From positions 21,824,771 through 21,888,770 of the forward strand of contig CM026424.1 in assembly GCA_014871385.1 (NCBI GenBank): a stretch of 64,000 bases of DNA, read 5' to 3'. Both the position numbers and the translations under genes were made by a program. The notes under the pieces were generated by a model. The model had not been told where the DNA came from. It saw only the letters and a list, made by a program, of their open reading frames with translations, and did no database searches. This stretch comes from Ceratodon purpureus (taxonomy: Eukaryota > Streptophyta > Bryopsida > Pseudoditrichales > Ditrichaceae). Below, piece by piece: positions 3,474-30,369 of this stretch (the stretch's first letter is position 1; each line of letters opens with the position of its first letter).

Positions 3474-3552
3474 CAGGGTTGTCACGGTCGTCCGGGACGC
3501 TCGGGACGTGGGGACGTCCGCGGACGTCCGCCAGCGCCAGGGGACGTCCTGT
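3474..3552 (+). repeat. hAT left terminus with GACGTCC subterminal repeats
   Basis: It starts with CAGGGTTGT, the inverse of ACAACCCTG at 19931-19939. The next 75 bases contain several GACGT/GGACGTCC words. The other end, at about 19840-19925, has the same kind of word cluster. In hAT and CACTA elements, repeated subterminal words are the binding sites of the transposase; that role is inferred here. Confidence 0.55.
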
Positions 3553-3577
3553 GACTTAGAAAAAAAAACCCCGCATA

Positions 3578-3599
3578 GGTTTCACCCCGGGGTGAAACC
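3578..3599. repeat. Perfect 22-bp palindrome
   Basis: GGTTTCACCCC is followed directly by its exact reverse complement, with no spacer. It lies between the GACGTCC terminus and GC array 1. It could form a cruciform or be a symmetric protein-binding site. Confidence 0.8.
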
Positions 3600-3639
3600 A
3601 CATCTTCTACGCGCGGAGGGGTTGCGGGGGAGGGTGCGG

Positions 3640-3960
3640 CCGTCGCCGCGGTGGGGGGGGCCGTCCCCGGCGACGGCCCCTTGCCGTCGCCGCGGTGGGG
3701 GGGCCGTCCCCGGCGACGGCCCCTTGCCGTCGCCGCGGTGGGGGGGGCCGTCCCCGGCGACGGCCCCTTGCCGTCGCCCGCGGTGGGGGGGCCGTCCCCG
3801 GCGACGGCCCCTTGCCGTCGCCGCGGTGGGGGGGGCCGTCCCCGGCGACGGCCCCTTGCCGTCGCCGCGGTGGGGGGGGGGGGCCGTCCCCGGCGACGGC
3901 CCCTTGCCGTCGCCGCGGTGGGGGGGGGGGGCCGTCCCCGGCGACGGCCCCTTCGACGGC
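3640..3960. repeat. GC array 1: tandem repeat of a 43-48 bp unit
   Basis: Six to seven tandem units each read roughly GCCGTCGCCGCGGTG, a run of 7-11 G, then GGCCGTCCCCGGCGACGGCC and CCTTG. Unit length varies only through the G run. Each unit contains a near-palindrome (GGCCGTCCCCGG/CGACGGCC). G runs spaced about 44 bp apart give strong G-quadruplex potential. It lies 100 bp upstream of the TATA box of the hAT transposase gene, so it serves as both subterminal array and upstream promoter. Open frames across it in several phases arise only because repeated GC-rich DNA lacks stop codons. Confidence 0.9.
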
Positions 3961-4046
3961 CGGACAGTCCATGATCGGACGGCCCCTCGTTGACTTACGG
4001 CCTCGACGGCCGTCCTCCGTTGATTTTTAGGGCTTACCCCTTGGCA

Positions 4047-4081
4047 TTTCAGGGAATGAGTATAAAAGACCCCTCCTGAAA
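4047..4081 (+). promoter_or_regulatory. TATA box inside an inverted repeat (hAT transposase promoter)
   Basis: TATAAAAG at 4061-4068 is flanked by TTTCAGG (4047-4053) and its exact complement CCTGAAA (4075-4081). It lies 206 bp upstream of the transposase ATG at 4274. Two other genes in this block have the same arrangement (14501-14523 and 19056-19080). Confidence 0.6.
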
Positions 4082-4273
4082 GTTGCCATTACACTTCTGA
4101 ATTGTACTCCATGTGCTACTAGTTCCACTAATATACGTGTGTATCTGTTGCATGGTGAACGGCGGCGTTCAGAAGTGTGTTGAATTGGAGCTTCTTCGGA
4201 GGCTCTAGTTCTCTTGAGGACGTGGTCACCCCGATTTTTTGAAGTTTTTCCGGGCGATCTATCAAGTGCACCA

Positions 4274-7265
4274 ATGGCGTCTAAAAGTTACTCCCCATGG
4301 TATACCGAAGTCCATATGAGCGATGCGGAGAAGAAGAAGACTGAGATGGTTCAATGTATGCTATGCAAGAACACTTTCGCAAAGAGGATTGAGCGGATGC
4401 TCAGTCATTTGGGCTATGACAAAGTTCTAGGGGTACGGACTAGTGGAGTAGGTCGTTGCACTAATTTGTCACCCGCTATATTGTCCTTGTTCAAGAATTG
4501 CGGTGGCAAATTCCCTAACGACTCCAGAATATTCATGTCGGAGCAGAGTACTTCCCCGTGACTCGTGGCAATATTATCCCCGAGAGTGAACTACTCCCAT
4601 GGATGTGGACCTCATGCGCTGGATCCCGGGTTTCTACTCCGAAGAATGAACCCGTTTTAAATTTGGTGGGGTGTACCTTTCATTTCCACTTTTTCCGGGG
4701 GGGAAGAGTAGTATGGTCCGTTTCCTCCTTTGAAGGCAAAGAGGCAATCTACCCTTCAAGAGGGCTTCGAAGAGACTCAGAGGCGGGAATGCGACAAAGC
4801 ATGGGCCACATTTTTTACGAGAACAGTATCTCGTTTAACGTGGCTCAGAGTGCCTCTTTCAAGGACGCGGTGTTGAAGACGTCCACATGAAGAGATCATA
4901 CACACCTCCATCTTACCACCATCTCGCGAACAATTTACTAGCCCAAGCAAGGACTGATTTGGAGACTTCCTGATGATAGGATTTTTTCAAGTGTTAGGAA
5001 GTACGGGGGGAACGTTGGCCCCTGGATGGGTGGACTTCTGTAAGCAGTCGCCCTCTAATAAACGCAATGCTGGTATCTCCAGCTGGTGAGTTATTCTTGG
5101 GAGCCGTTGACAACGAGTGGGAAAGAGAAGGATGCTGTTTTCGTAGCAACCGTCATTGAGAAGTTTATCCAACAAGTTGGAGAACAGAACATCATTCAAG
5201 TATGCTACGATAATGCTCCAGGTGATGCTTACTGCCGGAAAGTTGGTCCAAGCACTCTATCCATCCATATTTGTCCAAGGATGTGCTGCCCATGCGATGG
5301 ACCTTTTGTGGAGGATTGGAGTAAGGGATGAAGTGGGTGAAGGAGCTCCTAGATCGGGCTAAGAACTTGGTTAAGTTCATAAAGATAAGGCAAATGCCAC
5401 TCTCGGTATTTTCGAAGCACGAGGCAAAACTTAGCTTGCTGATGCCTGGTCAGACTAGGTTTGCATCGCACTACATTATGATTTCGCGTCTACTGAAGGT
5501 TCGAGGAGCATTGGAGCAGAGCGTTGTGGATCCTGACTGGAGAAACTACGAAACGAAGAAGAAGACCTTATCGCCGTGACAAAGCGAAGATCTCACGCGA
5601 TGTTAAGAGGTTGTCTGGATGACGTTTCTGGGAGCAATGTGCAAACTTCAAGTGGATGACGAGTCCCGTTGTATATGCCCCTACGAGAGTTTGATGCGAA
5701 GGAATCGGCATTGGGTAAGCCTACGTTGTTCTCCGCAACTTGAGAAGCATGTTCTCTCTTTACGCCATGAGCCCTTCAACTAGACTCAGACAATGCTGAT
5801 TACTGCGAGGGACTCTTTACGAGCGTAAAGCCATGATTAAATCACCCTTACAGTGTGCTGCTGCGCTTCTAAACCCTTATCTTATGACGATGAGGACCTT
5901 CGCAATGATACTGATGCAATGCATCGGCGAAGGAGGTCTTGTTGTCGATGGCTCCTCCGACACTGAAGGAAGTGGTCATAGAAGAGTTCTTTTGCATTTC
6001 GTGAAGCTTATCCTCCGTTTCGTGACGTACGTGAAATCCTCTAAGTCACAACTGCCGCCTTTCTGGTTGGTGGGATATATACGGATCCGCTGGTAAATTC
6101 ATTTCCGCCAATTGCAAAAAGGATTTTAGCTCAGCCCCTGTCTCTTCTTCTTCATCGAGCGGAATTGGAGTAGCTACTCCTTTGTCCACGACAGGAAGCG
6201 AAAACCGTTTACTTCCGGAGAGGGGCTAATGACCTCGTGTTTGTGTATACAAATTCCAAGATAATTTCCCAGTCCAAGTTGAGTGCCTTAGGCAGGTTCT
6301 ACGGGGAGTTGGAGGGGAAGGAGGATCGAAGGCCGTGGAAACCGAGGATGTTGACTACTCTAGTGAGTCTGATGTTGATCTACCCTTGATGATCTATCAA
6401 TTGATCCCCCCCCCATCGAGGCCCCAGTCGACGACCTGCGAGGTGTCTCCGAAAGGAAAATCCCGTTGTTCTCCTCGCCCATGGAGCGTGCTTTCGAGTA
6501 TGATGAGGTCGAAGAAGAAGGTACCAACGAGGAGGATACGATTCCTCTTTCCTCTTTTTTGAATGGAGACGGTTTATTAAACAGTGATAAGATTCTCCGG
6601 GGAGGATCCTCTCATACTACCGTGGATTTGGTCATACCAAAGAAAGAGGGAGACCCCACCATTGATACTTCTAAGGTTGTTTCTCCAAACTTCAACCGCC
6701 TGAAGGACGATATGGTTCCACCCACTACAAAGGAGGATGTGCCCGTACCCGTATCGGGTGCATCTCGCACATTGTTTGGAACTGCAAAGACTAGGGTCCA
6801 AGTTGGGGTTCGAATCGTCCACGAGGTTGGTTGAGTTGTCTAAAAAAATGAAGGCAGATGCTAAGGCTGCTGAAGTAGCGGAGAAATGTAGGAAGAGATT
6901 GGTCAACCCGACAAGCGGACCCGGGCCTCCTCTCTACTGATGACGGACTTCCAATTGGGAATCTCTTTGGGCCGAAGTTGGCTTTGGGAAAACCGGACAT
7001 ATTTCCTGAGAAACCCCCTGCTAGAGCCACGTCCAAGCGAAAGGCTGTAGACAAGACTCAGAAGGTGTTGGCTTTCAATCCTGGTAGGCCAAAAACTCCT
7101 TTGGATGACCCGAATGGCCCAAAGAAATTCCTGAACCCATTCGAGTCAAAGAAGAAGAGTAAGGCGAGGGTGAAGAAGGTACGCGAGAGCGATGGCGATG
7201 ACGAATACGATTCTTCCGGTCCTAGTGGGGCCGAAGTGAAGGACGACAGCGATTATGTGGCCTAA
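4274..7265 (+). pseudogene. hAT transposase (BED finger, DUF659, hAT dimerisation domain), frameshifted
   Basis: The order of domains is that of plant DUF659-type hAT transposases. A BED-like zinc finger occupies 4340-4500 (MVQCMLCKNTF, a later His, then GRCTNLSP). The DUF659 core runs about 5020-5330 (GEQNIIQVCYDNAP, then YPSIFVQGCAAHAMDLL). A downstream helical region at 5332-5579 contains KNLVKFIKIR and QTRFASHYIM. The C-terminal dimerisation signature ERNWSSYSFVHDRKRKP is encoded at 6157-6207. The pieces lie in different frames with stops between them (frame changes near 4560, 5150, 5330, 5580 and beyond), so no full protein can be made. A charged tail rich in Asp, Glu, Ser and Lys follows (6335-7265, ending DDSDYVA). 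The ATG at 4274 was chosen because it precedes the finger and follows the TATA box. The protein would cut and join element ends in the nucleus. Decay shows the copy is old, in contrast to the intact ORFs that face it. Confidence 0.82.
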
Positions 7266-7725
7266 TTGGGCACGATAGTTAGAAGGCGGCATTTCCAGTG
7301 CACCACCCTAGAATGCCACTCTTTTATGAATGTCCATTTCTAGAAACCATTATCATATTATATCTCATTTAAGCGGTGGTGCTTGCCTCTTCAATATTGT
7401 CCTCCACATTGTGTACTTATTTTTACTTTGATTGTACTTCTCGCAATTTCTTTCTCGTAATGAATGTACACAATCTACATATGAAGTTCGATGCATCTAA
7501 GTACTAACAATTCTTTCCACACAAATGCAACTCCGATAAAACATAAATGAAATTGTATTAAAACCAAAGGTAATTTTTGCAAGTACATATAGAAGTAGTG
7601 TAAAGTCCATACACCGGGCTCCGCAACCAATATATATATATACTGCTCTAAATACGACTATCACCCAGTGTATTGTCACATTAACCGTAGTAATGCGGGT
7701 ACCATGTCCAACGTAAATACTCTAC
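7266..7725. other. Convergent intergenic spacer
   Basis: AT-rich DNA between the 3' ends of the plus-strand transposase and the minus-strand RING gene, with a short (TA) run near 7631-7641. It probably holds both polyadenylation regions. No gene is seen. Confidence 0.5.
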
Positions 7726-9237
7726 TCAACGTCCATTGTTTGCATTTGACCTCCGAGTCTGGCGTCGCTGGCTTGGATGTGTAATCGTACCCCCCGATCG
7801 ATATTCTTCTTCCACGCGATCCAAAGAACGACGATTATCTTCCCCCCATTCGGGATCGTCTTCATAAGGGTTGTCTCGATTGCGCTTCTTGGAATTCTTC
7901 CCGTTCCACAACTCCTTTGCCTTGTCAATCTTGGCTACTGTTTCTTGCACAATCTTCTCAATCCTATTGCGTGACCAACGAGAGGAATTATCCTCCGCAC
8001 GAAGTGCCCTCCTCCAGTCGTTAACTATTTTATGAAGAGCATCGTCAAACTTCTTAGTGATCACCCAGTAGTCTAGGTCCGAATATTTGAAGGATTCCTC
8101 TGTAAAAGTGCGACGATGCTGAATGGCTTCTTCTAGTTTGGCCAATACAAGTGCCCTACCAACCGGGGTTCTGTCATACATCTTGTACTCATCAAGTTGG
8201 CCATAGTCCCGTTCTACTTCTCTTCTCTTACCGTCGGCATCTACCACAACTTCCGGTTTTGGAAACCGGAAGAAGCGATTGCGATGTATACTCCAATGTC
8301 CACCGAAGTTCCTACAAAAAAATTCTCGGTCCTTGGCATCCGGAATTTCACTTGCCCTCATCTCCACCTCATGGTCGTGTGTCATCCATGAAAAATCGTC
8401 CATTCCGGCATCGTTAGCCGTAGATAGTTGGTGAGTCATTGTCTCCGGGTTCCAAGCCAGTGATTTGCCCCAATCATAATAATTCAGCTCTTTCTTAGGT
8501 AGTTGGTCTAGTGGTAAATTCCACCGATCAAACTCATGCCCAGGCGGCATCACGTGTTGTAGTCCCAGCATCTCGTAAAAACGTGAACTAATTGGGGAGC
8601 GACACATAACACACTGTTTGTTGTTTAAAGCAGCCTTCGCGATGCAGGTTATGTGGAACTTGTGATTACAATTTCCCATCTCAAAGGCCCCTTCCGGCCC
8701 AAAATATTGTTGACAGATGGGACACGTTTCCTTCGAATATTCCTCCGACGGTTTGCGGGTATGGATAACCACACGTTTCGATTCATCCAAATGAGATGAT
8801 AGTACATCGTACGGCATCCACCCCTCCTCGACCTCTAGCGCCCAGTCAATGACCCCTTCTTTATTTTTGGAACTATGTAATGTGCGCTCCATCATTTCTC
8901 CTACATCGCGCCATATCGTGATTTTTGTAGCATCCTCGCCGCCCTTGGCTGCTGCTGCCTCGTTATACTTCTGTAAAGATGATTGGATAGCTTCTTCGAC
9001 ATCCATAGAAGTAATTGCACATTTCTTCATATCCTGTTGTGCTCTAGAGACTATTGTCTCCTTATCTCGTAGTTTGTGGACCCAACCAAGCCATGATAAT
9101 GCCCTTATGGAAGATGGTGTATCATCTACCATCCTTATGGTGGTCTTCAGCCTTTCCAGTTCCGTACGGGCCTCGTCTCTTTCCCTTCTAGCCACCTCCA
9201 AATCCCGTAAAATGTCTAATTCTATTGAATCATCCAT
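7726..9237 (-). CDS. RING-H2 finger coiled-coil protein encoded inside a hAT-like unit
   Basis: An uninterrupted 503-codon ORF starts at an ATG (9237). Residues 8-35 form a charged coiled coil (LEVARRERDEARTELERLK). A RING-H2 finger spans residues 172-212: Cys172, Cys175, Cys190, His192, His195, Cys198, Cys209, Cys212, spaced C-x2-C-x14-C-x-H-x2-H-x2-C-x10-C-x2-C. This pattern normally recruits an E2 for ubiquitin transfer, so an E3 ligase role is plausible but inferred. The remaining 290 residues (Trp-rich, then basic/acidic) are not recognised; the end is low-complexity and Arg/Asn-rich. It lies downstream of ORF fragments at 9823-10899 on the same strand, which may be 5' parts of the same gene cut off by introns or frameshifts. 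Its intactness contrasts with the ruined transposase it faces. It could be a captured host gene or a standing accessory gene of the element. Confidence 0.6.
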   Translation of the reverse strand: MDDSIELDILRDLEVARRERDEARTELERLKTTIRMVDDTPSSIRALSWLGWVHKLRDKETIVSRAQQDMKKCAITSMDVEEAIQSSLQKYNEAAAAKGGEDATKITIWRDVGEMMERTLHSSKNKEGVIDWALEVEEGWMPYDVLSSHLDESKRVVIHTRKPSEEYSKETCPICQQYFGPEGAFEMGNCNHKFHITCIAKAALNNKQCVMCRSPISSRFYEMLGLQHVMPPGHEFDRWNLPLDQLPKKELNYYDWGKSLAWNPETMTHQLSTANDAGMDDFSWMTHDHEVEMRASEIPDAKDREFFCRNFGGHWSIHRNRFFRFPKPEVVVDADGKRREVERDYGQLDEYKMYDRTPVGRALVLAKLEEAIQHRRTFTEESFKYSDLDYWVITKKFDDALHKIVNDWRRALRAEDNSSRWSRNRIEKIVQETVAKIDKAKELWNGKNSKKRNRDNPYEDDPEWGEDNRRSLDRVEEEYRSGGTITHPSQRRQTRRSNANNGR

Positions 9238-9822
9238 TGGCCCTTTTCCTCTATCCTCATGTCCTGGTGTTGCTTGGCTAGAGCCAATGTCAATGGAACT
9301 GGACCAGATGTCATTTAGACTTCTGAGACTGCCATCCCTTGTGTGGCCCCATCTCCACTTTTATTTGAAAATTTAGAAAGGCCAAGGTCATCGGAATCCT
9401 CACCATCGCTCAGTACTTCAATGATACGATCCTTTCCTTCCACCTTCACCACTTCCCTTCTTCACCGTAGGCTTCACTTCTTTTGTTTTGTTTTTCTCCT
9501 TCTCTACCTGGGTGGTAGATTTTTGCACTCTTCCAATTGTGCAAAAAAACTCATCTTCCCATGGTCCAACCTTCTTGTCAAACTCTTGATTTGTTCCGTT
9601 GCATCCATTAAATCCTTACTCAGAGCCACGTTCTCTTCGCCTAACTTCACACGGTCTCCAGAAGAGGCTTAATGGAAGATGCCAAAGTGTCAAAGCCAAG
9701 GGCACCCCTGTATCATGCCCGGAGTGATACTTCCAAATGCATGAGCCATATTTATGAGATCTGGTGCCATAGCGCCTAATACGGAAGCCCCTTCTTTCAG
9801 GGTGTGTGCAATCTTCAACACA
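9238..9822 (-). other. Linker between ORF pieces of the minus-strand gene
   Basis: The frame of the RING ORF stays open upstream of its ATG for about 120 bases before an in-frame stop. Beyond that, no frame stays open through the stretch. It may be an intron or a decayed middle part of one gene running 10899 to 7726. Confidence 0.35.
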
Positions 9823-10278
9823 TTATGAATTTGTTGCACTTCCTCCGTGGTTTTTCTTGTCAGCAGCGTCTCCCTCTGTGGTATTCTCTAAGCCCCCACG
9901 CTGTTCATCAGAGGACACCTCCGTCAATTTGATGCTAAAATCTAGTAACTCCTTCAATGATTCATTGTTTGGCATCGACTTCACCAGCTCCATAATCTCC
10001 GAAATGGAATGAACTGCATCCTTTGTGCTATCCTCTTCGGTAGGCACTTGTACTATTGCCAAGGAACTTGGACCATCATCCACTGAACGAGGGTTGGAGC
10101 ATCCGGCTTCCGCAGCCGTAAGATGTGTTGAGCAGTCATTGTCCACCTCCACTTCCACCTCATCTACGGCTGCCTTGCCCTTTGTATCGTCGGAAGATTT
10201 CACCGTGATTTCCAGGTCTGCTCTAGGAATAGTAGGGGCATTAGTTTCTGTGGCAACGGGGAACATCGTAGCGATCAC
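9823..10278 (-). CDS. Acidic low-complexity ORF, probably part of the same gene
   Basis: A 151-codon ORF overlaps the end of the preceding ORF by four bases in a different frame. It is rich in Asp, Glu, Ser and Thr, with no domain recognised. Position and strand suggest it is the acidic linker of a larger protein with an N-terminal domain (10275-10899), this linker, and the coiled coil plus RING. A frameshift or an intron would have to join them. It could also be chance coding. Confidence 0.35.
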   Translation of the reverse strand: MIATMFPVATETNAPTIPRADLEITVKSSDDTKGKAAVDEVEVEVDNDCSTHLTAAEAGCSNPRSVDDGPSSLAIVQVPTEEDSTKDAVHSISEIMELVKSMPNNESLKELLDFSIKLTEVSSDEQRGGLENTTEGDAADKKNHGGSATNS

Positions 10279-10899
10279 ATTGGCAATGGCAGCGGGCTTC
10301 TTTCCTCTGGACGATGCGGAGTTTCATTCTGTACTTTTTTTACTTCATTCTTCGGAAAGCTCTTTAGATGTGGCCACTGCCGCTTTCGGAACTCCGCTAC
10401 AACCTTCTGTGCTTGCAAAGGATCGATCAGATATAAATCCGGAATGTCTGTTACCATCCATCCAATTTGCAACGGCCTGTCTTTCGTAGTGGGGTACGTA
10501 CACCAACTAATCTTCCGCTTCAATATTAGCTCCGCATATACCATACTGCAAATGGTATAATTGAAATGGCCTTTGCTGGGCTTCCGTTGCCCAAACATAG
10601 TAGTCCAGACTTCATATGCCCGATGCAAGAAATGGTCATCCATGCATGACCAGGGCTTGCAACTAAAAGTCCGTGTGTTCATCTCGTGTTCTTCTCGGGG
10701 CCATAACTTGTCAATGTGATACATCTTCACATACTTCTTGCACTCCTTGAAAGTCCAGAAAATCTCCCCTACAGATTCCCAGCCTTCTTCGCTACAATGT
10801 TTTTGTTGTCTAGGATCTCCCAAGAAAAGTTGTGGCACATTCCCTTCGGCCTGTTCCTCTTCCCGGTTCCTCCAATCTCATCATGTTCCGGATCCGCCA
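10275..10899 (-). pseudogene. N-terminal domain shared with the 500-aa protein of unit 2; frameshifted near the start
   Basis: The open frame 10838-10275 encodes a domain that aligns by eye with residues about 25-150 of the 14860-16362 protein. Shared features are DP...GWE...W, KKYVKM-x-H-x2-KL-x-P versus KEYVKM-x-H-x2-KL-x-P, HF-x2-R-x2-EV, an AE-x2-L-x-K/R block and W-x-T/TW. The best start codon, an ATG at 10899 (MADPEHDEIGGTGKRNRPKG), lies in another frame, so one frameshift near 10850 is needed. The function of the domain is unknown to me. Its presence in both units argues that it belongs to the element family and was not captured at random. Confidence 0.55.
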
Positions 10900-11129
10900 T
10901 AGTAACCTCGTTTTAAACAAAAACGATATGGTTTTGTTTTAAAGAAAACAAGGAGTTGATAAATGACGTTTACAAATAACGAATACAGAAAATTCAAAAA
11001 CTCCCCCCCCCACAATAAAAAGGGACCTCCATCTCCTCACCCCCACGTACCAACAAGCCCCCAAGTGAATTGGGAAACTGTAGCAATAGGAGAGGGACTA
11101 TTGAGGAGAGTGAAGTGAGGAAGTGGGGG

Positions 11130-11665
11130 ACGGCCGTCGCCATATATGGCGACGGCCTCCAACCCTACGGCCGTCCCCCCGAGCCTAGTGCCGTCGCCCC
11201 CCGATCCTACGGCCGCGGCCAATGGCCGTCGTCCGAACCTGACGACGGCCGTTGGGGGACGTCGGGTCGGGGGCCACGGCGACGGCCGCGGAGGCCCGTT
11301 CCTCCGCGGCCGTCCGATCGGGCCGTGTCCTCGGCGACGGCCGTCCGATGAAGGCCGTCGCCGAGGGGACGGCCTTGGAGACGGCCCCCGAGGGGGCGGC
11401 TTGCGGCCCTCCGATCGCGGCCGTCCCCGCGGCCGACCGCACGGGGACGGCCGCGTAGACGGCCTTGGAGACGGCCGCGGGGACGGCACCGTCGGCGACA
11501 GCCCGCGGCCGTCCGATCGGGGCCGTCTCCAAGGCGACGGCCGTTCGATCACGGCCGCGATCGAAGGGCCGTCCCCGCGGACGGGCCCTCGCGGAGACGG
11601 CCCACGGCCGTGGAAACGGCCCCCGACCGTGGGGACGAGGCCGTCGCGGCCGCGGGAAATTTCCC
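11130..11665. repeat. GC array 2 (GGCCGTC/GACGGCC words, both orientations)
   Basis: About 535 bp are packed with GGCCGTC, GACGGCC, CCGCGGCC and CGATCGG words in mixed orientation, without the regular unit length of array 1. Base composition changes abruptly to AT-rich on both sides. It lies about 230 bp upstream of the minus-strand ATG at 10899. Long open frames here are composition artefacts. Confidence 0.85.
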
Positions 11666-11668
11666 TCC

Positions 11669-13721
11669 CCCCCCTTTTTTAAAATACAAATGAAAAAAAC
11701 ATATAATGCTACATCTTCCGACCACATATTACACTAAACCTGTTAATTTCTTTCACCAATTAAAATGAGAACAGCAGTTAATGTAAACATGAATTAAAAT
11801 ACTTCATGGTATGCAAAGCATCTAAATTCTTCAACGAGTCATTATTCCGTACGCTCCACTGAAGTTAATGTATGTGTCATTTATTCGAATCATTATTTCT
11901 GTTGTTTCTATCGTACGCATTTCAAGGTGGTCTATCATCGCACTCCAAAAGTTCCTTGCAGAAATCGAACTCATCTAAACTTGTTTCAGAAATTGTAATC
12001 TAAATAGTTCTCCGTCTTCTTATTCTCCGCTTTGAATTTTTGTTTTTTTAAATACAGAAGTGCTTCTATTATACTTTCATTAAACGGCTTCATATTATCA
12101 ATTTAATTCGAGTTACCATCTCTTTATGTACTTTTAACGTTCCTCCCTCTATACAATTTCCACTTTCGAATATTGTTTTCATTTACCTCTTCTTTATTTT
12201 CCTCTATGTTTATTCCCCTCTAGTTTATGCCCTTTTTTTAACGTCTAATTTGTCTAATTTAGAACTTCAACCCTCGAAGCTCCATAAATGTCATTTTGTG
12301 AATTTTTTCCTTTCATATCGTTTTGAACGTTCGTATTTCGATTTATTTCCTCCATGACCCATGTTAAAGTATATTTTACTAATTCGACCACTATTCCACC
12401 ATTTTACTTGTTAAATTCTCTCATTCGTGCTTGTTAAATTCTCTCATTGTGTCATTAGTAAGTGATTACTTTTGTACGTATGTACTATACATTGTACAAG
12501 TTAGAATCCAATTCCATATTTATATTTACGTTAAAGTGTATATGAATAAACATATATTTGTATAGAGTATAATGTAAATGTGTTACCTAATTTATTTATT
12601 TTATTTCATATAAGTTGCAAGGTACAACTCAAATCTGGGCGTTGGAAACTAGAGTTGTTTATAAAAACAATGATCTCAATTATAGTCGTTCACAAATTGG
12701 CATATTCAGTGACGGTTGAATGTTTTCTGTTTTAATTTTGTTTTTTACTATTATCCCTTCCTCATTTCATAATGTGAGCTAGTGATTTTTTTATTTTTTT
12801 TTAATGATAACACAGTACTACGGTATGGAAGTTTGTAAAATAAAAGACATTAAAGAGGAAGGAGAGTTTTATATTTCAAATAACTCTAAACCAGCCATGA
12901 GAAATTAGAATTGGACCATTTGTTATGAAAACAATGATTTGAGTTTTATTCCTCCATGAATTGCATAATCCCAAGAGAATTGAATGTTTGTTTTGGTTTA
13001 TTTCACTTTATTATTATCTCCAGTTTCTCTCATAATCTAAACTACTATTTATGTTTTTATTTTTGATTCTAGCATAATACTAAAGAACGAGAGTATGTAA
13101 AATTAAAGAAATAAAACTGGGGTAAATCATTCCATTAAAAATTAGAGTCAAAGAATCTATATAAATATTTTCATTGTATACCACTAATCGAGAAGAAATT
13201 GGATCTATATTTCTAAGAGATTACCCTAAACCGTAAACCGGTGAAATATAAATGCAAATCTCTTAACCATTTAAACGTAAGGTGCACCGCATGAAAAACC
13301 AAGTGTGTACATCAATTTATGCGTTGAATTACTTCTAGTGCATTCTCTCCGCGATGTTCCTCTTATCATATTGTTGTTGACATTTACTCTTTTGATTCGT
13401 TAGTATAAAATGTTAATTCATTACCGTATGCTAAAACATGAGTAACTTCGTTTCTTTAAATGACAATTGGTAAAAACTGTTTAGTGTACCCACAATGTTT
13501 ACGGTTCTTTCCATTCCATAGGATATATATTCTTCTTCATAAACGTGTTCACATTATTTGTAGATCCTAGGGGGTTATCCACCCCCAAAGAACCAAAATA
13601 TCACATAGTTCATTGGATCCCAATTTCAAACGTCGACCCCACCTCCCCGATCACAGGATCTTCAGGACATTCCCCACAATATCCGGGATATGTCTGAATT
13701 TTCCATTTGTAGGAGATATGC
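11669..13721. other. AT-rich spacer between the two GC-array units, no gene seen
   Basis: About 2 kb with no open frame of note and no recognisable domain. The sharp switch from GC array 2 to plain AT-rich sequence suggests host DNA, or a worn older insertion, between two elements. Near 13568 the short inverted repeat GGGGGT-tatcc-ACCCCC is present. Confidence 0.5.
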
Positions 13722-13756
13722 TGTCCAAACAATCCCAAGTGGGATTGTTTGGGACA
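13722..13756. repeat. Near-perfect inverted repeat before GC array 3
   Basis: TGTCCAAACAATCCCA, two bases, then TGGGATTGTTTGGGACA: 16-17 bp arms differing by one inserted C. A purine-rich tract and a run of about 16 C follow before array 3 begins. Confidence 0.8.
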
Positions 13757-13852
13757 AGAAGGAGGGGGGGAGAGTAGGGGAGGAGAGGGGGGAGGAGAGG
13801 AGAGAAAACACAAGGGGAGGGGAGTTCCTTCGACCCTCCCCCCCCCCCCCCC

Positions 13853-14475
13853 CGGCCGTCCCCGGGGACGGCCACGGCCGACCCCGCGTGGACGGCCGTC
13901 GCCCACGGCCGTCGGATCTTCTCCGACGAGAAGATCCTACGGCTGCGGACGACGGCAGTCCACGCGGGGACGGCCGTGGCCGACACGCCACACGCGGTCG
14001 CAGCCCCCCGACCCCGGGGTCGGCCGCGGCCGTCCCCGGGGACGGCCACGGCCGACCCCGCGGTCGGAAGGTCCGTCCGCGTGGACGGCCCTGGCCGACC
14101 GCGTGGACGGCCGTGGCCGACCGCGGGGTGGAGCACGGCCGTCCCCGGGGACGGCCACGGCCCACCCCGCGGTCGGAAGGGCCGTCGGCGTGGTCGGCCG
14201 TGGCCGACCACGCCGCTGCAGCCTCCGACCGCGGGGTGGAGCACGGCCGTCCCCGCGGTGGGCCGCGGCCGACCCCGGGGACGCCCGTCGACGTGGTCGG
14301 CCGTCCCGACCGCGGGGCGGCGGTCCACCGACGCACCCTTTGGGGAGCGGTCGCGGCTGCACGACCGGTCGCGGCCGCGATCGTGGACGGCCGCGACCGC
14401 TTCCGCGACGGACCAGTTACGGCCTTTGGATTCTCCATTCCCCGAGATCCAACGGCCGTAGGGGGGCCGTCGTTT
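13853..14475. repeat. GC array 3 (GGCCGTC/GACGGCC words)
   Basis: About 620 bp of GGCCGTCCCCGG, GGACGGCCACGGCC and CGACCGCGG words in mixed orientation, similar to arrays 2 and 4. It lies directly upstream of the TATA-like hairpin and the 500-aa gene. All open frames across it are artefacts of composition. Confidence 0.85.
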
Positions 14476-14500
14476 GACCTAACTGGCTGCCTAGGGGTTC

Positions 14501-14523
14501 GGGCCAGCATAAATGGCTGGCCC
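14501..14523 (+). promoter_or_regulatory. TATA-like box in the loop of a perfect 8-bp inverted repeat
   Basis: GGGCCAGC (14501-14508), loop ATAAATG, then GCTGGCCC (14516-14523). It is about 340 bp upstream of the ATG at 14860 and just downstream of array 3. Compare 4047-4081 and 19056-19080. Confidence 0.55.
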
Positions 14524-14859
14524 TTCTTCCTTTTTCTTCACTTGGGTGCTCGTGCTACATGTGCTGGATTTACTTCAGCTCAGTTGCGTTCCTCCAAGCT
14601 TTTACTACTTCCCCACGGGTTATCGTGGGATTGTGTTTAGGGTTGTCAGCACCGGTTGTTGGTTATTATGAAACCAACAATATAGTGCTTCATACGTACG
14701 GTTTTTTTGGCAGGAGTTCTGGGTTTTGTTTTAGTCCTTATGCACTAGATATATACGAGATAAAATCAACTTTTATACGGTGGGGAGAAGTTACAGGCAT
14801 TGTTACGAGGTTGGTACGATACACGGTATTCACAGCTACTCGCTTACCGGACTTTCGCC

Positions 14860-16362
14860 ATGCCTCGTAACGACCGGGGAGGACCCTCCACTCCTAAAAG
14901 GAAACACCCCTTGGATCCATACGCTACGAATGACCCTGATTGTGTAGCAGAGATTGGATGGGAGGGGGAACCATCACCATGGCGGATGGTAACTTGCAAG
15001 GAATATGTCAAGATGAAGCACCTCATGAAGTTGATCCCAGTACATCTACGTACCGAGGCTGCGGAGAAACAAGCAACACGGGGAGAGATCAGGATCGACA
15101 ATTGTGAAAGTAATCATTTCAAAATTCGATACAACGAGGTTTTTCGAGCAGCACGAATCCAGAACTCCCGACCTCATATCATGTTGTATTCGAATATGGC
15201 AATGGTGTGGGCGGAGATAGTCTTACATAAGAGGGTTGACTGGACCACAGTCTCGGGCCTGAGGACAGATAGAATGAACAGAGACAGCATGGATCTTGTA
15301 ACAGACTGGAGTGGACATAGCGATTGTCCCCCATTACATATTTCAAACCGTCGGAGTCCACCGGCACAAGATGCAGGAATACAAACTCTAGCCATCGAAT
15401 ATAATGATGAGGAACAGGAGAGACGTCGTTTAAGCTATGATGATGAAGACAACTATCGAGGGCGTCGCTCAAACGAAAATCCAAGGAATCGCAGAGGGCA
15501 TCGTGCCAGAGAGTCATTACGTACCAACCATGAGGAGTATGGACAAAGCTCTGCCCACGGGGGACACCGTTCGCTAGATCGTCAGGACATGGGACCCCAC
15601 GAACAAGGCTATGGCCACGGGGAACCGGAAGGAGCTGATTTACCCTTTGACTTTGCGGATAGCACGTATGGACCCTATGGGGGACGACCGTGGCCAGATT
15701 ATGCAACGGGATCAAGATACTTTAGTAACTATGACGACGGCTGGTCGGAAATACCGAGTCCTCCAAGGAGTGCTAGTCCGCGCCATCGAACACCTCCGAG
15801 AGAGGTACCTCACGGTTATTCCCCAGATCGCGAAGAAGATACGCAGAGACTGGGACGTGATGATTACGCAACTCCCCCTCCATACCGCGGATATGGTGGT
15901 CATGGTACCCCATCTGCCCTATTTGCAGAAGATGATTACAGATCATCTTCGCGGACTCCGCCTGGAATATTTCCTCCACCTCTAGGTTATCACACCGACG
16001 GTACTGATCACAATAGCGGGGACAACCGCAACGTACTTCATCGCGATGACAGAGTACCACCTCCTCCTTTTGGATACCCTCCCGGTCGAGTTGTAAGAGA
16101 TAGCTATTTTGAGGAAGAACTAGAGTTGGAGCGAACAAGGCAAAATTACGTACTACAGATGGAGAATCATGCGTTCCACCTAAGACAGGATAATCGAAGA
16201 TTGATGGAGGAGAGAGAGAGACTTCTAAGAGCCTCCACAAATTCTGCAAGGCACGGGCCACAAGAAACGTACGATCGGGGAGGTCCAAGCGAACTCCCCA
16301 ATGATGGGAACTATTATCATCCATATGACTACAATGGATTAGGGTGGAGGGGAGACTATTAG
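14860..16362 (+). CDS. 500-aa Gly/Tyr/Pro/Arg-rich coiled-coil protein of the hAT-like unit
   Basis: An intact ORF begins at an ATG (MPRNDRGGPSTPKRK). Residues about 25-150 form a domain shared with the minus-strand ORF of unit 1 at 10275-10838 (KEYVKMKHLMKLIP, NHFKIRYNEVF, AMVWAEIVLHKRVDW). The middle (about 190-410) is a disordered stretch rich in Gly, Tyr, Pro, Arg, Asp and His, with repeated short RG/YG/PP motifs. The end (about 420-480) is a charged coiled coil (EEELELERTRQNYVLQMEN, then RRLMEERERLLRA). No enzyme motif is visible. The layout, folded domain plus disordered region plus coiled coil, suggests a scaffold or nucleic-acid-associated protein; this is inference. The next gene faces it from the opposite strand. 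Intactness over 1.5 kb suggests recent activity or selection. Confidence 0.65.
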   Translation: MPRNDRGGPSTPKRKHPLDPYATNDPDCVAEIGWEGEPSPWRMVTCKEYVKMKHLMKLIPVHLRTEAAEKQATRGEIRIDNCESNHFKIRYNEVFRAARIQNSRPHIMLYSNMAMVWAEIVLHKRVDWTTVSGLRTDRMNRDSMDLVTDWSGHSDCPPLHISNRRSPPAQDAGIQTLAIEYNDEEQERRRLSYDDEDNYRGRRSNENPRNRRGHRARESLRTNHEEYGQSSAHGGHRSLDRQDMGPHEQGYGHGEPEGADLPFDFADSTYGPYGGRPWPDYATGSRYFSNYDDGWSEIPSPPRSASPRHRTPPREVPHGYSPDREEDTQRLGRDDYATPPPYRGYGGHGTPSALFAEDDYRSSSRTPPGIFPPPLGYHTDGTDHNSGDNRNVLHRDDRVPPPPFGYPPGRVVRDSYFEEELELERTRQNYVLQMENHAFHLRQDNRRLMEERERLLRASTNSARHGPQETYDRGGPSELPNDGNYYHPYDYNGLGWRGDY

Positions 16363-17312
16363 AATGGGGTGCATGGTAGTACTTTCTACAGCATCGGAGC
16401 GTACCGAGACTTTAATGTGGACTTCGCATATTACAAATTTACAACGGAAAGTAAAAGATGCAAGCATAGTATGTACGTAGTTTGCAGTTTTGTAGATGGA
16501 GGTTTAAAATGTAAGGACTCAAGAATACAGGCACGTGCCACATTTTGCAAGTAGAATAGATATAATTAGTGTTTTAGAGTGTAGTTGTGTTGTCTTTTAT
16601 ATTGTAGTTGTCTTCACATTTGAAAGGAATTTACCTTTTTAATATTCTTGTAGCCGTATTCGAAGTGCACATTACTATCAAAATCACTATTTTTAAAATG
16701 ACAACTTCCTATTGACATGGGTTACGAGTCTACGGCTTACGAGCACTAGAATATAATGAATCTCAAGACCAGTATGCAAAATAATTTTCAATTATTTTTT
16801 TGGCTAAATTAATAAGAATATCGTGAATGATATTTTTTGATGACTGCATATTTATATCTAAGGTATTTGTTTGTACAAAGGATTATGAGCAATCACGTTT
16901 TGCGGCCCTTACGCTTTCGTCTTCACGAAAAGAACTTGAGTATACGCTTGCCAATATTTGTAAGAATAAAAATTACAAAGCATAACGGTTACAATTCACA
17001 TATCGCATAATTTTCATAATTAGAATTGAGAGTATCGACTTTTAGCTAGATGTGTGGAGCCAATCCGTTTTCCTCATAATACAAGGGGTAGAAATAGACC
17101 AATCTTAGTACAGAGACCATATTTGAACCAAATGCAAGTAAACTTTATAAACAAAATATTGACCGGTGTACAAAAATTGAGATTCCAACATCTCATAATA
17201 GTATAGAGTGTAAATAGGACTATTCACTACTGAGAGCTATGCCCGCCGTCCGGTAACAAAAAAAACATTATGCTTTTATAGGAATACGGAAAGGTAGATA
17301 TGTAACTCCATA
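16363..17312. other. Convergent spacer, no gene seen
   Basis: About 950 bp of AT-rich DNA between the ends of the 500-aa gene and the kinase-like gene. Only short frames are present. It presumably holds both 3' UTRs. Confidence 0.5.
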
Positions 17313-18731
17313 TCAGTAACCCTCGCGATAGTGCTCGATGGGAGTGGGCCAGTTGTGTGTATCTCTGAAACGGTTAATAAGATGTCCGAGTCCACCAATC
17401 GTTCCTCTGTTGTTTTGGCAAACTCTCTCAAGGTAACCTTCGAAAACCATTGCGAGTTCTCCGATATTCTGGAAATGGCGTGTTTCTACTGGCTCGGCTT
17501 CGTGGTATGCCGTGCACATGTTGCCCCTGTTGATCTTCGCCGCTATCTTCGCAGCTGCGAAATCCTCCGATGCAACCGTCAAATCTGGAATGATTTGAAT
17601 ATCTTGGTTTTCCTTGTGTACGTATACCACGCGAGGATCCACCCAGTATCGCCTCCTCATAGTCTCCTCCTTCTGATGGACATTCTCAAAAACCCAAGGC
17701 GACCTTCTGTTCTCTAGTGTCTTCGTCATCAAGCCCCAATCACAAACCCCGATGTAGATCTTGGACTCATCTTCCGGAAAGTGAAGTAGGATGTTGTCCG
17801 GTGACAAGTCATTGTGGAGGTAACCGTATTTGTGTACGGCATCTATGATGTTACACAATGCCCAAGCAAGCTCTGTACGCTTACTTCGGAAAAGTTGGAG
17901 ACGCTTCCCTAGAATCGGACTGTCGTCTGCATTCTCTCTGAAGATGTAGTCGATGGGGAGGTCACCCGGGGCCTCGTTGTCTCTCTGTAGCATGGCTCGA
18001 AGGGTCCCACCGTTCCACCAGAACATGAATCCCACATGTTCCAACTGATGAATGGCCTGAAAGCGGATGACACCAGGATGGGGAATCCTTATCGCAAGAG
18101 ATTCATTGTTGTGGTCCACACGTGCCAAATCCGGCCTCATAGACCAATTGAGCGGCCGTTTCTCAGCAAACTCCCAGTACGGTGGGATTTGCGGGTTTCC
18201 TTCGATACGAACCCTACGTATGGTAGCATAACCACCTCTCTGGACTTCCTTGTCCAAGTAATAGAAAACTGCAAAGTCTGCCAAGATAGTCAAATGCCGT
18301 TTACGTAAGTCAGCCGCCGTCTCCATCCCAATCGGAGAATTCCACCAAGTAATAGACGCCCGTCGATGCTTTCTTGAGCTATGGGGCGCCATTAGTCTCG
18401 TGAAGCAATCTGCCTTTGCAATAGTATCCTTGAAGGCCTGGACTCCCCCCCTTTGCGCCTTTGCATACTTAGTAATAACCTCTTTAGCATTCCATAACGC
18501 ATCGTGTGCACGTTGTGACACGAAATGATCGTAACCGGGCTTCTGTGTATCCGAATGCCAGCACGGATCCATCAAACGATCCCTAATCTTTGTCTCCATC
18601 TCTGACTTGAATTTCCTGGGCCCATCTTCCTCATACCGAACGTAACGACTATTCAATGAAACAAGGGTATTCTCCTGGTAAAATTCCACGATGAGTGCCA
18701 CAATATAATCCTTGCAACGTAAGCTCGGCAT
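17313..18731 (-). CDS. Protein-kinase-like protein encoded in the hAT-like unit
   Basis: The open frame runs from about 18800 to 17313. The first in-frame ATG is at 18731, giving about 472 residues; the frame is open some 70 bases further upstream without an ATG, so the true start may be spliced or frameshifted. The catalytic-loop motif HNDLSPDN (HxDxxxxN) lies near residue 306 of the ATG form. CDWGL follows in the place of the DFG motif, near residue 330. A possible glycine-rich loop (RGGYATIRRVRI) lies near residue 165. The usual VAIK lysine is not obvious: the best candidate segment, LAIRI, has Arg. It may therefore be an atypical kinase or a pseudokinase. The N-terminal 150 residues are not recognised. 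It has no transmembrane segment, so it is not a receptor-like kinase. Its promoter is GC array 4 plus the TATA hairpin at 19056-19080. Confidence 0.6.
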   Translation of the reverse strand: MPSLRCKDYIVALIVEFYQENTLVSLNSRYVRYEEDGPRKFKSEMETKIRDRLMDPCWHSDTQKPGYDHFVSQRAHDALWNAKEVITKYAKAQRGGVQAFKDTIAKADCFTRLMAPHSSRKHRRASITWWNSPIGMETAADLRKRHLTILADFAVFYYLDKEVQRGGYATIRRVRIEGNPQIPPYWEFAEKRPLNWSMRPDLARVDHNNESLAIRIPHPGVIRFQAIHQLEHVGFMFWWNGGTLRAMLQRDNEAPGDLPIDYIFRENADDSPILGKRLQLFRSKRTELAWALCNIIDAVHKYGYLHNDLSPDNILLHFPEDESKIYIGVCDWGLMTKTLENRRSPWVFENVHQKEETMRRRYWVDPRVVYVHKENQDIQIIPDLTVASEDFAAAKIAAKINRGNMCTAYHEAEPVETRHFQNIGELAMVFEGYLERVCQNNRGTIGGLGHLINRFRDTHNWPTPIEHYREGY

Positions 18732-18919
18732 GTCATCGAATTTGTTCGCCCATTCCCCCACATTCTTCTGCTTCTTATTCTTTGGCGTCGTGGAAAGCCT
18801 TCAAGGCTTCAAGAAATCGTAACCGCAACTCCAAAGAAACCCTCAATTCCCACAATGATTAATAAGAGCAATACAAATCCAAAGGGTTTTAAAAAAAACC
18901 GTTTAAAAATTTGAAAAGT

Positions 18920-18939
18920 CCCCCCCCCCCCCCCCCCCC
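18920..18939. repeat. Run of 20 C (G on the minus strand)
   Basis: An uninterrupted homopolymer between the kinase-like ORF and its TATA hairpin. On the transcribed minus strand it would be G-rich leader sequence. Shorter C runs lie beside arrays 2 and 3. Confidence 0.9.
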
Positions 18940-19055
18940 AAATGAAGGACCCCTTTCCTCCCGGTGAGAACGACCAACGGAGAAGGATCAAGTCCCCCAC
19001 CAGTAGCAATCAGCCTCACTCGAAAAGGGAGAAAAAAGGTAAAAAATGAAGAGGC

Positions 19056-19080
19056 GGCTTCCCCTTATATAGGGGAAGCC
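19056..19080 (-). promoter_or_regulatory. TATA box in the loop of a perfect 9-bp inverted repeat
   Basis: GGCTTCCCC (19056-19064), loop TTATATA, then GGGGAAGCC (19072-19080). On the minus strand the loop reads TATATAA, a strong TATA box. It lies between GC array 4 and the kinase-like ORF. Confidence 0.7.
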
Positions 19081-19084
19081 GACC

Positions 19085-19765
19085 TCGCGGCCGTCCCCGC
19101 GGCCGTCCGATCTACGCCCCCGCGGCCGTCCGATCGGACGGCCGCGTCGGGCGATGGCGCCGCGTGGCCGTCCGACCGACGCGGCCGTCTCCGCGGTCGG
19201 CCCCGTCTGCACGCGGTCGGATACGCGGACGGCCGTGTCTCCCCGCGGTCGCCCACGCGGACGGCCGCGGGATCGGACGGCCCTCCGCGGCGGCCATGGT
19301 CGGCCGCGGAGGGCCGTCCGATCCAGTGGCCGTCCCCGCGGCCGACCGCGGAGACGGCCGCCCGATCGGACAGCCCACCCAGGCCGACCATGGCTGCCGC
19401 GGGCCGTCCGATCCCACGGCCGTCGCCGTTGCCGACCGCGGGGACGGCCACGGGGACGGCTGCGGGATCGGACGGCCCGCGGTCGGCCGCGCCGATCGAG
19501 CGGTCCCCGATGGCCTGCGCCGGGATCGATCCGGGCCGTCGGATCCCGCGGCCGTCCCCGAGGCCGTCCTCGCGGTCGGCCGCGGCGACGGCCGTGGGAT
19601 TTGACGGCCCTGGAGGGCCGCCCACATCCGACGGCCCGCGATGTGCCAGCACGGCCGCATCTTGGCCGTCGGATCGACGTGCGGCCGTCCGCAACGACCC
19701 CGCGGCCGTCTCCGCGGCCGTCCCCGCGGCCGTCCCCGCGAACGGACGGCCGAGATGAGGCGTGG
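19085..19765. repeat. GC array 4 (GGCCGTC words with CGATCGGACGG)
   Basis: About 680 bp of CGCGGCCGTCC, GATCGGACGGCC and CCGCGGTCGG words in both orientations. It adjoins the right terminus at 19831-19939, as array 1 adjoins the left terminus at 3474. Frames open through it are artefacts. Confidence 0.85.
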
Positions 19766-19839
19766 TGGCGGGATCGGCGGATCGGACGGCTGGGGAATGT
19801 TTTTACTCCTCCGGGGTCGCAAAATTATTACCGCGGCGT

Positions 19840-19939
19840 AATTCTCGAGCGTCGGGGACGCCACGTCCGGGACGGGGGACGTCCGGATCGGACGTCTTGA
19901 CGTCCGGAGCCGGGTCGGACGTCTATTTGAACAACCCTG
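19840..19939 (-). repeat. hAT right terminus with GACGTCC-type subterminal repeats
   Basis: Read on the minus strand from 19939 it begins CAGGGTTGTTCAAATAGACG, then repeats GACGTCC/GGACGTC words at least six times. The first nine bases equal those at 3474. The 8-bp flank beyond (TCCACAAC) does not match the left flank CTAGCTGC. Confidence 0.6.
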
Positions 19940-20348
19940 TCCACAACTTTTTTGAATATGATATTTTTTGGACATGTACCTAACTCAATTAGGAACAATA
20001 ATATGGAGAGATTCATTCCATATCTACTTTAAAAAATGGTTTTTTGGGCCTTCAAAACTCTGCTGTCCCCTTTCTTTGCAGGGGAAAAAAACTTGTTTTT
20101 CTACTTTGAACGTTACGATCTTGCAATGGGTGAGGTTGTTTTGATGAAAAATACCCTCAGAACTTTAGGGGTTAACAATGGATTTAGAGATTAAAGAATA
20201 GCAAGCTCCATGGAGTTTCTACTTTTATTGGATTGAAGCTGAAGGAAAATATGGTCTACTTATGTAAGTTTTTATCTAAGAAAAAAACTCCAATCTAGTT
20301 TGATTTTAGTCTAAATTAGCCCTCAATAACATCATTTTCTTTTAATAC

Positions 20349-20363
20349 ATGCTTAGTTCGTTT
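20349..20363. repeat. Left target-site duplication of LINE 1
   Basis: ATGCTTAGTTCGTTT, 15 bp, identical to 27904-27918. The last three T merge with the poly(T) that is the LINE tail. Confidence 0.85.
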
Positions 20364-20432
20364 TTTTTTTTTTTTTTTTTTTGACACAAATCAAGGGAGG
20401 CCCTTAACTGCATTGAGAGAAAAAAGTCACAA

Positions 20433-28524: not shown

Positions 28525-30369
<1,845 letters not shown>

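Follow-up and report, generated by a model that had tools for sequence, protein, structure and literature searches.

Evidence for a single 16.5-kb, four-gene hAT transposon with four GC-rich arrays in the moss Ceratodon purpureus

A stretch of the Ceratodon purpureus genome raises a simple question: do its two halves, each reading GC-rich array, gene, facing gene and GC-rich array, represent two transposons lying side by side, or one? The stretch, positions 3474-19939, is part of the 64-kb window that was analysed (C4, contig CM026424.1, 21824771-21888770) within a 362.5-Mb, 151-contig assembly. From left to right it carries an array, a rightward transposase gene (gene 1), a leftward gene for a RING protein (gene 2), an array, an AT-rich spacer, an array, a rightward gene for a 500-aa protein (gene 3), a leftward gene for a kinase-like protein (gene 4) and an array. 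A first-pass annotation, made from the letters alone, took this for two hAT-like units, each with a convergent gene pair. Gene order and strands bear out the convergent pairs. The division into two units does not stand, for the terminal inverted repeats (TIRs) are at the outer ends, target-site duplications (TSDs) flank the whole, and only the left unit has a hAT gene. We find that the stretch is, with a probability of about 0.93, one cut-and-paste transposon of the hAT superfamily, some 16.5 kb long and carrying four genes.

The evidence comes from three further copies, A (C4, ~35 kb away from the copy in the window), B (C2) and C (C5), of which 20 kb were read each. All are colinear with 3474-19939, central spacer included, with main alignments at 96.8-99.1%. 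In copies B and C the TIR is where the main alignment stops; in copy A the alignment continues into a common right flank. In four of four copies (window, A, B and C) the element ends are CAGGGTTGT...ACAACCCTG, with 9-bp TIRs, which occur at the outer ends only of the 16.5-kb element. Eight-bp TSDs match at 8/8 positions in copy A, 7/8 in copy B and 8/8 in copy C, and they enclose the whole 16.3-16.7 kb. Copy C interrupts an open frame resembling a retrotransposon reverse transcriptase (YLDD, by eye), and this frame is continuous once the element and one TSD are removed. Two distinct hAT-like transposons built alike would explain why both halves read array, gene, facing gene, array with an AT-rich gap between them. 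However, TIRs and TSDs enclose the entire element, the spacer lies inside all three colinear copies, the halves are linked at a fixed distance, and no transposase was found in the right unit. Two neighbouring transposons are therefore highly improbable, and we reject them on the TSDs around copies of 16.3-16.7 kb.

How far does this linkage extend over the genome? The genome-wide lists hold the best-scored candidates; counts from them are lower bounds, and misses are partly gaps in the lists. Element copies are many and lie on many contigs. The 20-mer of the right end occurs exactly 192 times in the genome and its reversed control 0 times. At three mismatches the left-end count is unusable (192+164 vs 171+145 in the reversed control), and the left ends used are at least 100 exact occurrences, reaching into contig C6. 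Among the matches listed, gene 2 lies 6.7-7.8 kb inward of 45 of 100 exact left ends, and of 0 with strands swapped. Over the stretch common to both lists, a partner right end lies within 40 kb of 51 of 74 left ends (1/74 in the wrong-orientation control). The pairs fall into two main size classes, 28 of them measuring 4.0-5.4 kb and 16 measuring 16.3-17.1 kb, with 7 elsewhere (7.1-33.1 kb). Gene 2 is inside 15 of the 16 pairs of the 15-19.5 kb class, 6 of the 7 others and 0 of the 28 in the 3-7 kb class. The 46 transposase loci among the matches listed are accompanied by gene 2 in 43 cases, gene 3 in 31, gene 4 in 28, gene 3 or 4 in 33 and all three in 26, as against 0/46 with genes on the other side. 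Seen from gene 3 (83 loci listed), a convergent kinase gene stands within 3 kb in 68, all 68 at 941-967 bp, and on the wrong strand in 0; gene 2 is within 30 kb in 72/83, and both gene 2 and the kinase accompany 58/83. Seen from the kinase gene (88 loci listed), gene 2 is on the expected side within 30 kb in 72, of which 59 are at 6.2-7.3 kb. The linkage of arrays and genes asserted by the first-pass annotation held when put to the test: the two go together in the copies read, and the genes do so genome-wide as well.

Table 1. Features of the element, in window positions.
Feature	Position	Strand	Remarks
Whole hAT element	3474..19939	+	16,466 bp in window copy; colinear with three further copies
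Left terminal inverted repeat CAGGGTTGT	3474..3482	+	identical in four copies
Left subterminal block, GGACGTCC-type motifs	3490..3555	+	by eye
GC array 1, ahead of gene 1; seven copies of a 44-bp tandem unit	3624..4014	.	19 heptamers at 3638-4008
Gene 1, hAT transposase; frame broken in window copy by many small indels	4274..7265	+	994 aa in copies A-C
Gene 2, N-terminal KKYVKM domain, middle part, RING-H2; frame broken in window copy	7726..10900	-	1056 aa in copy B, 1061 in copy A
GC array 2, upstream of gene 2	11129..11645	.	23 heptamers at 11129-11639
AT-rich central spacer between divergent genes 2 and 3	11650..13600	.	within main alignment of 3/3 colinear copies
GC array 3, upstream of gene 3	13854..14471	.	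17 heptamers at 13854-14465
Gene 3, 500-aa protein, N-terminal KEYVKM domain in common with gene 2	14860..16362	+	remainder seemingly disordered (by eye)
Gene 4, 491-aa kinase-like protein	17313..18788	-	ACG at start-codon place in window copy
GC array 4, upstream of gene 4	19089..19751	.	28 heptamers at 19089-19745
Right subterminal block, GACGTCC-type motifs	19840..19925	-	by eye
Right terminal inverted repeat	19931..19939	-	comparison of copy ends

The frame of gene 1 runs over 1032 codons in copies A-C, 994 of them from the ATG. In copy A its product matches DUF659 at 123.7 bits (cut-off 34.7, E 6.8e-36) and Dimer_Tnp_hAT (PF05699) at 39.4 bits (cut-off 21.4, E 5.4e-10); zf-BED, at 13.9 bits and E 0.056, lies below its Pfam cut-off of 20.6. 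LDGWTS, DNAP and CERNWS motifs are discernible by eye, without alignment to a reference, and the search of the PDB gave zero matches at E 0.01. Dimerisation domain, 8-bp TSD and short TIRs are all present, and the element fits the hAT superfamily.

Gene 2, with a frame of 1060-1065 codons in copies A-C, encodes a RING-H2 domain in which eight zinc ligands of the C3H2C3 type can be read by eye. zf-RING_2 (PF13639, cut-off 27.3) scores 32.6 bits in the window copy (E 9.6e-08) and 31.7 bits in copy A, and the best PDB matches of copy A residues ~720-777 are Arkadia (E 7.9e-05) and RNF38 (E 4.5e-04). The likeness to these RING-H2 E3 ligases is limited to the RING; in the rest of the protein's ~1000 residues nothing rises above a Pfam cut-off or reaches E 0.01 in the PDB. 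Together with the gene 1 domains this confirms the contents ascribed to the left unit, a hAT transposase and a RING protein. Those ascribed to the right unit were also recovered, the 500-aa protein with zero Pfam matches and the kinase-like one below the Pfam cut-off. The frame of gene 3 has 532-537 codons in copies A and B and is split in copy C; that of gene 4 has 495 codons in copy A, where the start codon is ACG too, is interrupted by a stop in copy B and is broken in copy C.

The domain said to be common to genes 2 and 3 is indeed so: their KYVKM domains are identical at 36 of 106 positions (E 3e-10). Against the PDB this domain gives two weak matches only (best E 0.037), no relative of it was found in viral contigs, and its AlphaFold model, with a predicted local distance difference test score (pLDDT) of 35.1, is unusable. 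Because the two genes are mirror images about the central spacer, they probably share an ancestral gene. The element might then be composite in origin, fused from two ancestral elements or from an inverted duplication of array and KYVKM gene around the spacer, and its extra genes might be partly redundant; such an origin is compatible with one element of four genes. It would account for the common N-terminal domain and for the arrangement of genes 2 and 3, which face apart with one array each in mirror image about the spacer. Yet the common part covers only ~105 residues at 34% identity, beyond it the 187-aa window open reading frame (ORF) of gene 2 has no further significant match to gene 3, and no one-unit ancestor was found, though none was specially sought. 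We consider a composite origin quite conceivable, if somewhat short of probable.

A question remains, are the three additional genes working parts of the transposon or host sequences that it happens to carry? Among copies A, B and C the ratio of nonsynonymous to synonymous substitution (dN/dS) is 0.21-0.31 for gene 1, 0.24-0.41 for gene 2, 0.17-0.57 for gene 3 and 0.20-0.79 for gene 4, based on a small number of changes. In pairs that include the window copy, which in genes 3 and 4 is identical to copy A, it ranges from 0.17 to 0.98. Compared with copy B over up to 705 codons, gene 2 gives 0.29-0.51 in 28 of 29 loci, the 29th (L010) being copy B itself with zero change; the older L005 gives 0.474 over 584 codons. 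On C6, a divergent copy D preserves the order of genes 1-4, with proteins 64-84% identical. Its dN/dS is 0.298, 0.373, 0.399 and 0.539 for genes 1-4, where neutral simulations (200 each) have means of 0.72, 0.75, 0.80 and 0.79 and minima of 0.55, 0.58, 0.59 and 0.49; by a simpler ratio, 0, 0, 0 and 19 of 1000 simulations are as low. In an old copy E, genes 1 and 2 give 0.436 and 0.335 (neutral minima 0.52 and 0.56). Since neutral decay after insertion is included, the ratios of copies D and E are pushed toward the neutral level. From these comparisons purifying selection is clear on genes 1-3, including the RING gene, and weaker on gene 4. In gene 4 the catalytic loop HxDxxxxN and the DxG are present as HNDLSPDN and DWG (by eye) and are unchanged in copy D; over the catalytic stretch, which was picked after the alignment was seen, 1/51 residues are changed vs 116/437 elsewhere (Fisher p 1.5e-5).

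Captured pieces of host genes, carried as passive Pack-type cargo, would fit the RING and kinase-like domains, which are typical of hosts, and the 28 of 28 elements of 3-7 kb that have spread with no gene 2 match; the gene 4 ratio of copy D also lies inside the neutral range of the 200 simulations. Against passive cargo, the frames are long and open at many loci: many of the matches to genes 2, 3 and 4 genome-wide lie in such frames, as do many of the best gene-2 matches in one of ~1060 aa (the search with the 187-aa window ORF scored the best 150 of 1134 candidates, all close copies). Copy D moreover keeps all four genes in order, and its ratio falls below 1000/1000 simulations in genes 2 and 3, and below 981/1000 in gene 4. 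We judge passive cargo to be unlikely. Given the conserved order and the low nonsynonymous ratios in copy D, genes 2-4 seem to be lasting components of the transposon, with gene 4 the least certain.

Several observations weigh against one intact four-gene element. The TSD of the window copy agrees at 2/8 positions, which is no match, and its right flank is the same as that of copy A; because of this flank, the window copy either lies in a duplicated segment or had its left part exchanged. In none of copies A-C are all four genes perfect. Copy D is decayed, with 12, 2, 5 and 5 stops and 8, 9, 8 and 1 frameshifts in genes 1-4; neutral change gives mean stops of 13.9, 19.2, 12.9 and 8.7, so that gene 1 has as many as expected of it, and the gene 4 ratio of this copy, as said, is inside the neutral range of the 200 simulations. 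Among the matches listed, 13 of the 46 transposase loci lack both a gene 3 and a gene 4 match (copy C is one of them, yet it has a split-frame gene 3 and a broken gene 4), 16 of the 88 kinase loci are without a gene 2 match on the expected side within 30 kb, and gene 2 is in the wrong place in 5 of the 88. Finally, gene 4 reaches 23.8 bits with Pfam Pkinase (cut-off 31.7), and the place of its ATP-binding lysine is apparently taken by arginine (LAIR for VAIK, by eye).

Part of the damage is peculiar to the window copy, in which small indels break the frames of genes 1 and 2; these are open in other copies. Between it and copy A there are 77 small indels (62 single-base), dense at 4.2-7.0 and 9.2-10 kb, and zero differences in the bins from 15 kb on. 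The indels at 4200-14200 resemble long-read errors that escaped correction in a duplicated segment more than they resemble natural decay. Window positions 3814-21896 and the copy A region (L038-L039), 35 kb apart on C4, have in common at 99% the element and a right flank with part of a long interspersed nuclear element (LINE); this is either a segmental or an assembly duplication. Among 29 loci, 14 of 406 pairs of gene 2 show 0-2 base differences over ~2115, several of them between different contigs. On the sequence evidence, the four-gene element has been recently active and is probably autonomous.

Of the GGCCGTC/GACGGCC heptamers of the window, 87/92 fall in four clusters, the GC-rich arrays, and each array lies ~230-390 bases before the start codon of the gene downstream, as the first-pass annotation had proposed in placing one array upstream of every gene. 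Chance is excluded as their source, for 100 first-order Markov sequences per array gave means of 0.6-1.0 and a maximum of 5, vs 17-28 observed. The arrays may be promoters, because each precedes a gene. Might they be nothing else, CpG-rich promoters or an unstable GC satellite to which no protein binds sequence-specifically? Their place ahead of every gene start would fit, as would the variation in unit and copy number: array 1 counts 11 motifs in copy A, 28 in copy B and 21 in copy C, and in L050 (1-2740) it has grown to >2 kb of GC repeat. However, arrays with different longer units have the same heptamer core, and derivatives retain arrays, array 1 after the left end in 10/10 and array 4 in 7/10 (L044, L045, L047, L048, L049, L051 and L053), the latter within 4.5 kb and among the matches listed. 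We regard promoters or satellite without specific binding as a real possibility, but lean toward an additional role.

These derivatives come from the 55 left ends that have no gene 2 match; ten were read, over 4.5 kb each, and in all ten the left-end match extends into array 1 (from copy B element position 169 on). Relatives of 4-5 kb keep the element's ends and have no gene 2 match. L045 is complete (4103 bp, TSD 8/8) and non-autonomous, and its middle and that of L048 match parts of the element. L044, L047, L049, L050, L051, L052 and L053 have in common another, AT-rich middle, for which there is no match to copy B among the matches listed; with the element's ends and an inverted-repeat-bearing middle of ~3.3 kb they form a second non-autonomous family. 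L046 differs from the other derivatives, and end pairing gives it a length of 17,054 bp. Copy E (L056-L057, C6 4.62-4.64 Mb) has genes 1 and 2 only, with no gene 3 or 4 match; the gene-3 query meets there only the shared domain of gene 2. A right end at 19420 of the 20-kb stretch has the same 9-bp TIR, other subterminal sequence (GTCCGTCC repeats) and no matching TSD, and possibly belongs to a sister hAT family.

How does this element compare with known systems? hAT elements are a textbook one-gene system, normally with a transposase gene only, and those of the Ac/Ds, Hermes and Tol2 type measure ~3-5 kb. The moss element resembles these in its short TIRs starting with CAGGG, 8-bp TSD, hAT C-terminal dimerisation domain, subterminal repeats and gene-less derivatives, and differs in its 16.5 kb, four genes, four long GC arrays, two of them internal, and spacer. 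In this comparison with what is familiar, the three additional genes and the four arrays set it apart from known one-gene hAT elements. Like En/Spm of the CACTA superfamily (TnpA/TnpD), it combines a transposase and further protein with subterminal repeat blocks, whereas En/Spm belongs to another superfamily and is not known to have a RING or kinase-like gene. The nearest working parallel, by plan, is Arabidopsis VANDAL21 (Hiun) with VANC, a plant transposon that also encodes more than a transposase and has a short motif in tandem arrays; VANDAL21 is Mutator-like, whereas the moss element is a hAT. For VANDAL elements, VANC is described as binding a short motif multiplied in tandem repeats in non-coding regions and as causing methylation loss over the whole element (PMC5735166). 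BED domains of Hermes are described as binding subterminal repeats of the left end (PMC10368747), and gene-less Ds derivatives are described for Ac/Ds (PMC3260210). A literature search for hAT elements equipped with genes of this kind, and for this element in Ceratodon, gave none among the matches listed, with few subscription journals covered.

From this plan a mechanism can be sketched. The gene 1 protein would cut and insert the element by binding to the TIRs and subterminal motifs, much as in Hermes. The four CpG-rich arrays would serve as promoters and as clustered protein-binding sites, their core motif clusters being candidate sites for a protein of the element. Genes 2-4 would make up a regulatory module, with paralogous N-terminal domains (2 and 3), RING-H2 (2) and a kinase-like protein (4), which might target the arrays or host silencing factors and so keep the element expressed. 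Motif arrays together with non-transposase genes under selection, in a plan as in VANDAL, suggest that genes 2-4 serve in regulation or anti-silencing, and we put this role forward tentatively, as rather doubtful. Equally speculative is the fuller proposal, in which the hAT element brings along a module for post-translational control: one protein resembling a RING ubiquitin ligase and another resembling a kinase, two of the element's proteins having paralogous N-terminal domains. This module would target the GGCCGTCC arrays or silencing proteins of the host and so maintain the element's activity, as an anti-silencing system that arose independently of VANDAL/VANC. The first-pass annotation had imagined transposons with their own signalling or ubiquitin factors; the predicted domains fit and the genes are carried by a transposon, as one element and not as two units.

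Elsewhere in the window we noted a plant-type LINE at 20433-26624, with reverse transcriptase and endonuclease above the Pfam cut-off and zf-RVT just below, and a second at 50044-57375 (by eye). An open polyubiquitin frame of eight repeats lies at 28540-30369, and an ORF at 35772-36617 resembles, by eye, a portion of a NAC transcription factor.

The copies are spread unevenly. For Ceratodon purpureus a genome of 360 Mb (PMC8000587) and sex chromosomes of 110.5 and 112.2 Mb (PMC9273592) are given; C6 has 110,524,308 bases and is taken to be a sex chromosome. Ranked by similarity to the window, the best 150 of 1134 gene-2 candidates fall on C6 and elsewhere in proportions of 16/34 (ranks 1-50), 39/11 (51-100) and 47/3 (101-150). 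If similarity stands for age, old copies are mostly retained on the sex chromosome. This spread, in which the 110.5-Mb contig holds most of the less similar copies and other contigs hold most of the similar ones, bears on sex chromosome growth. If our reading is true, a young, many-copy hAT transposon with three more genes would be a natural test case for DNA transposons countering host control, in a haploid moss in which knock-outs are practicable.

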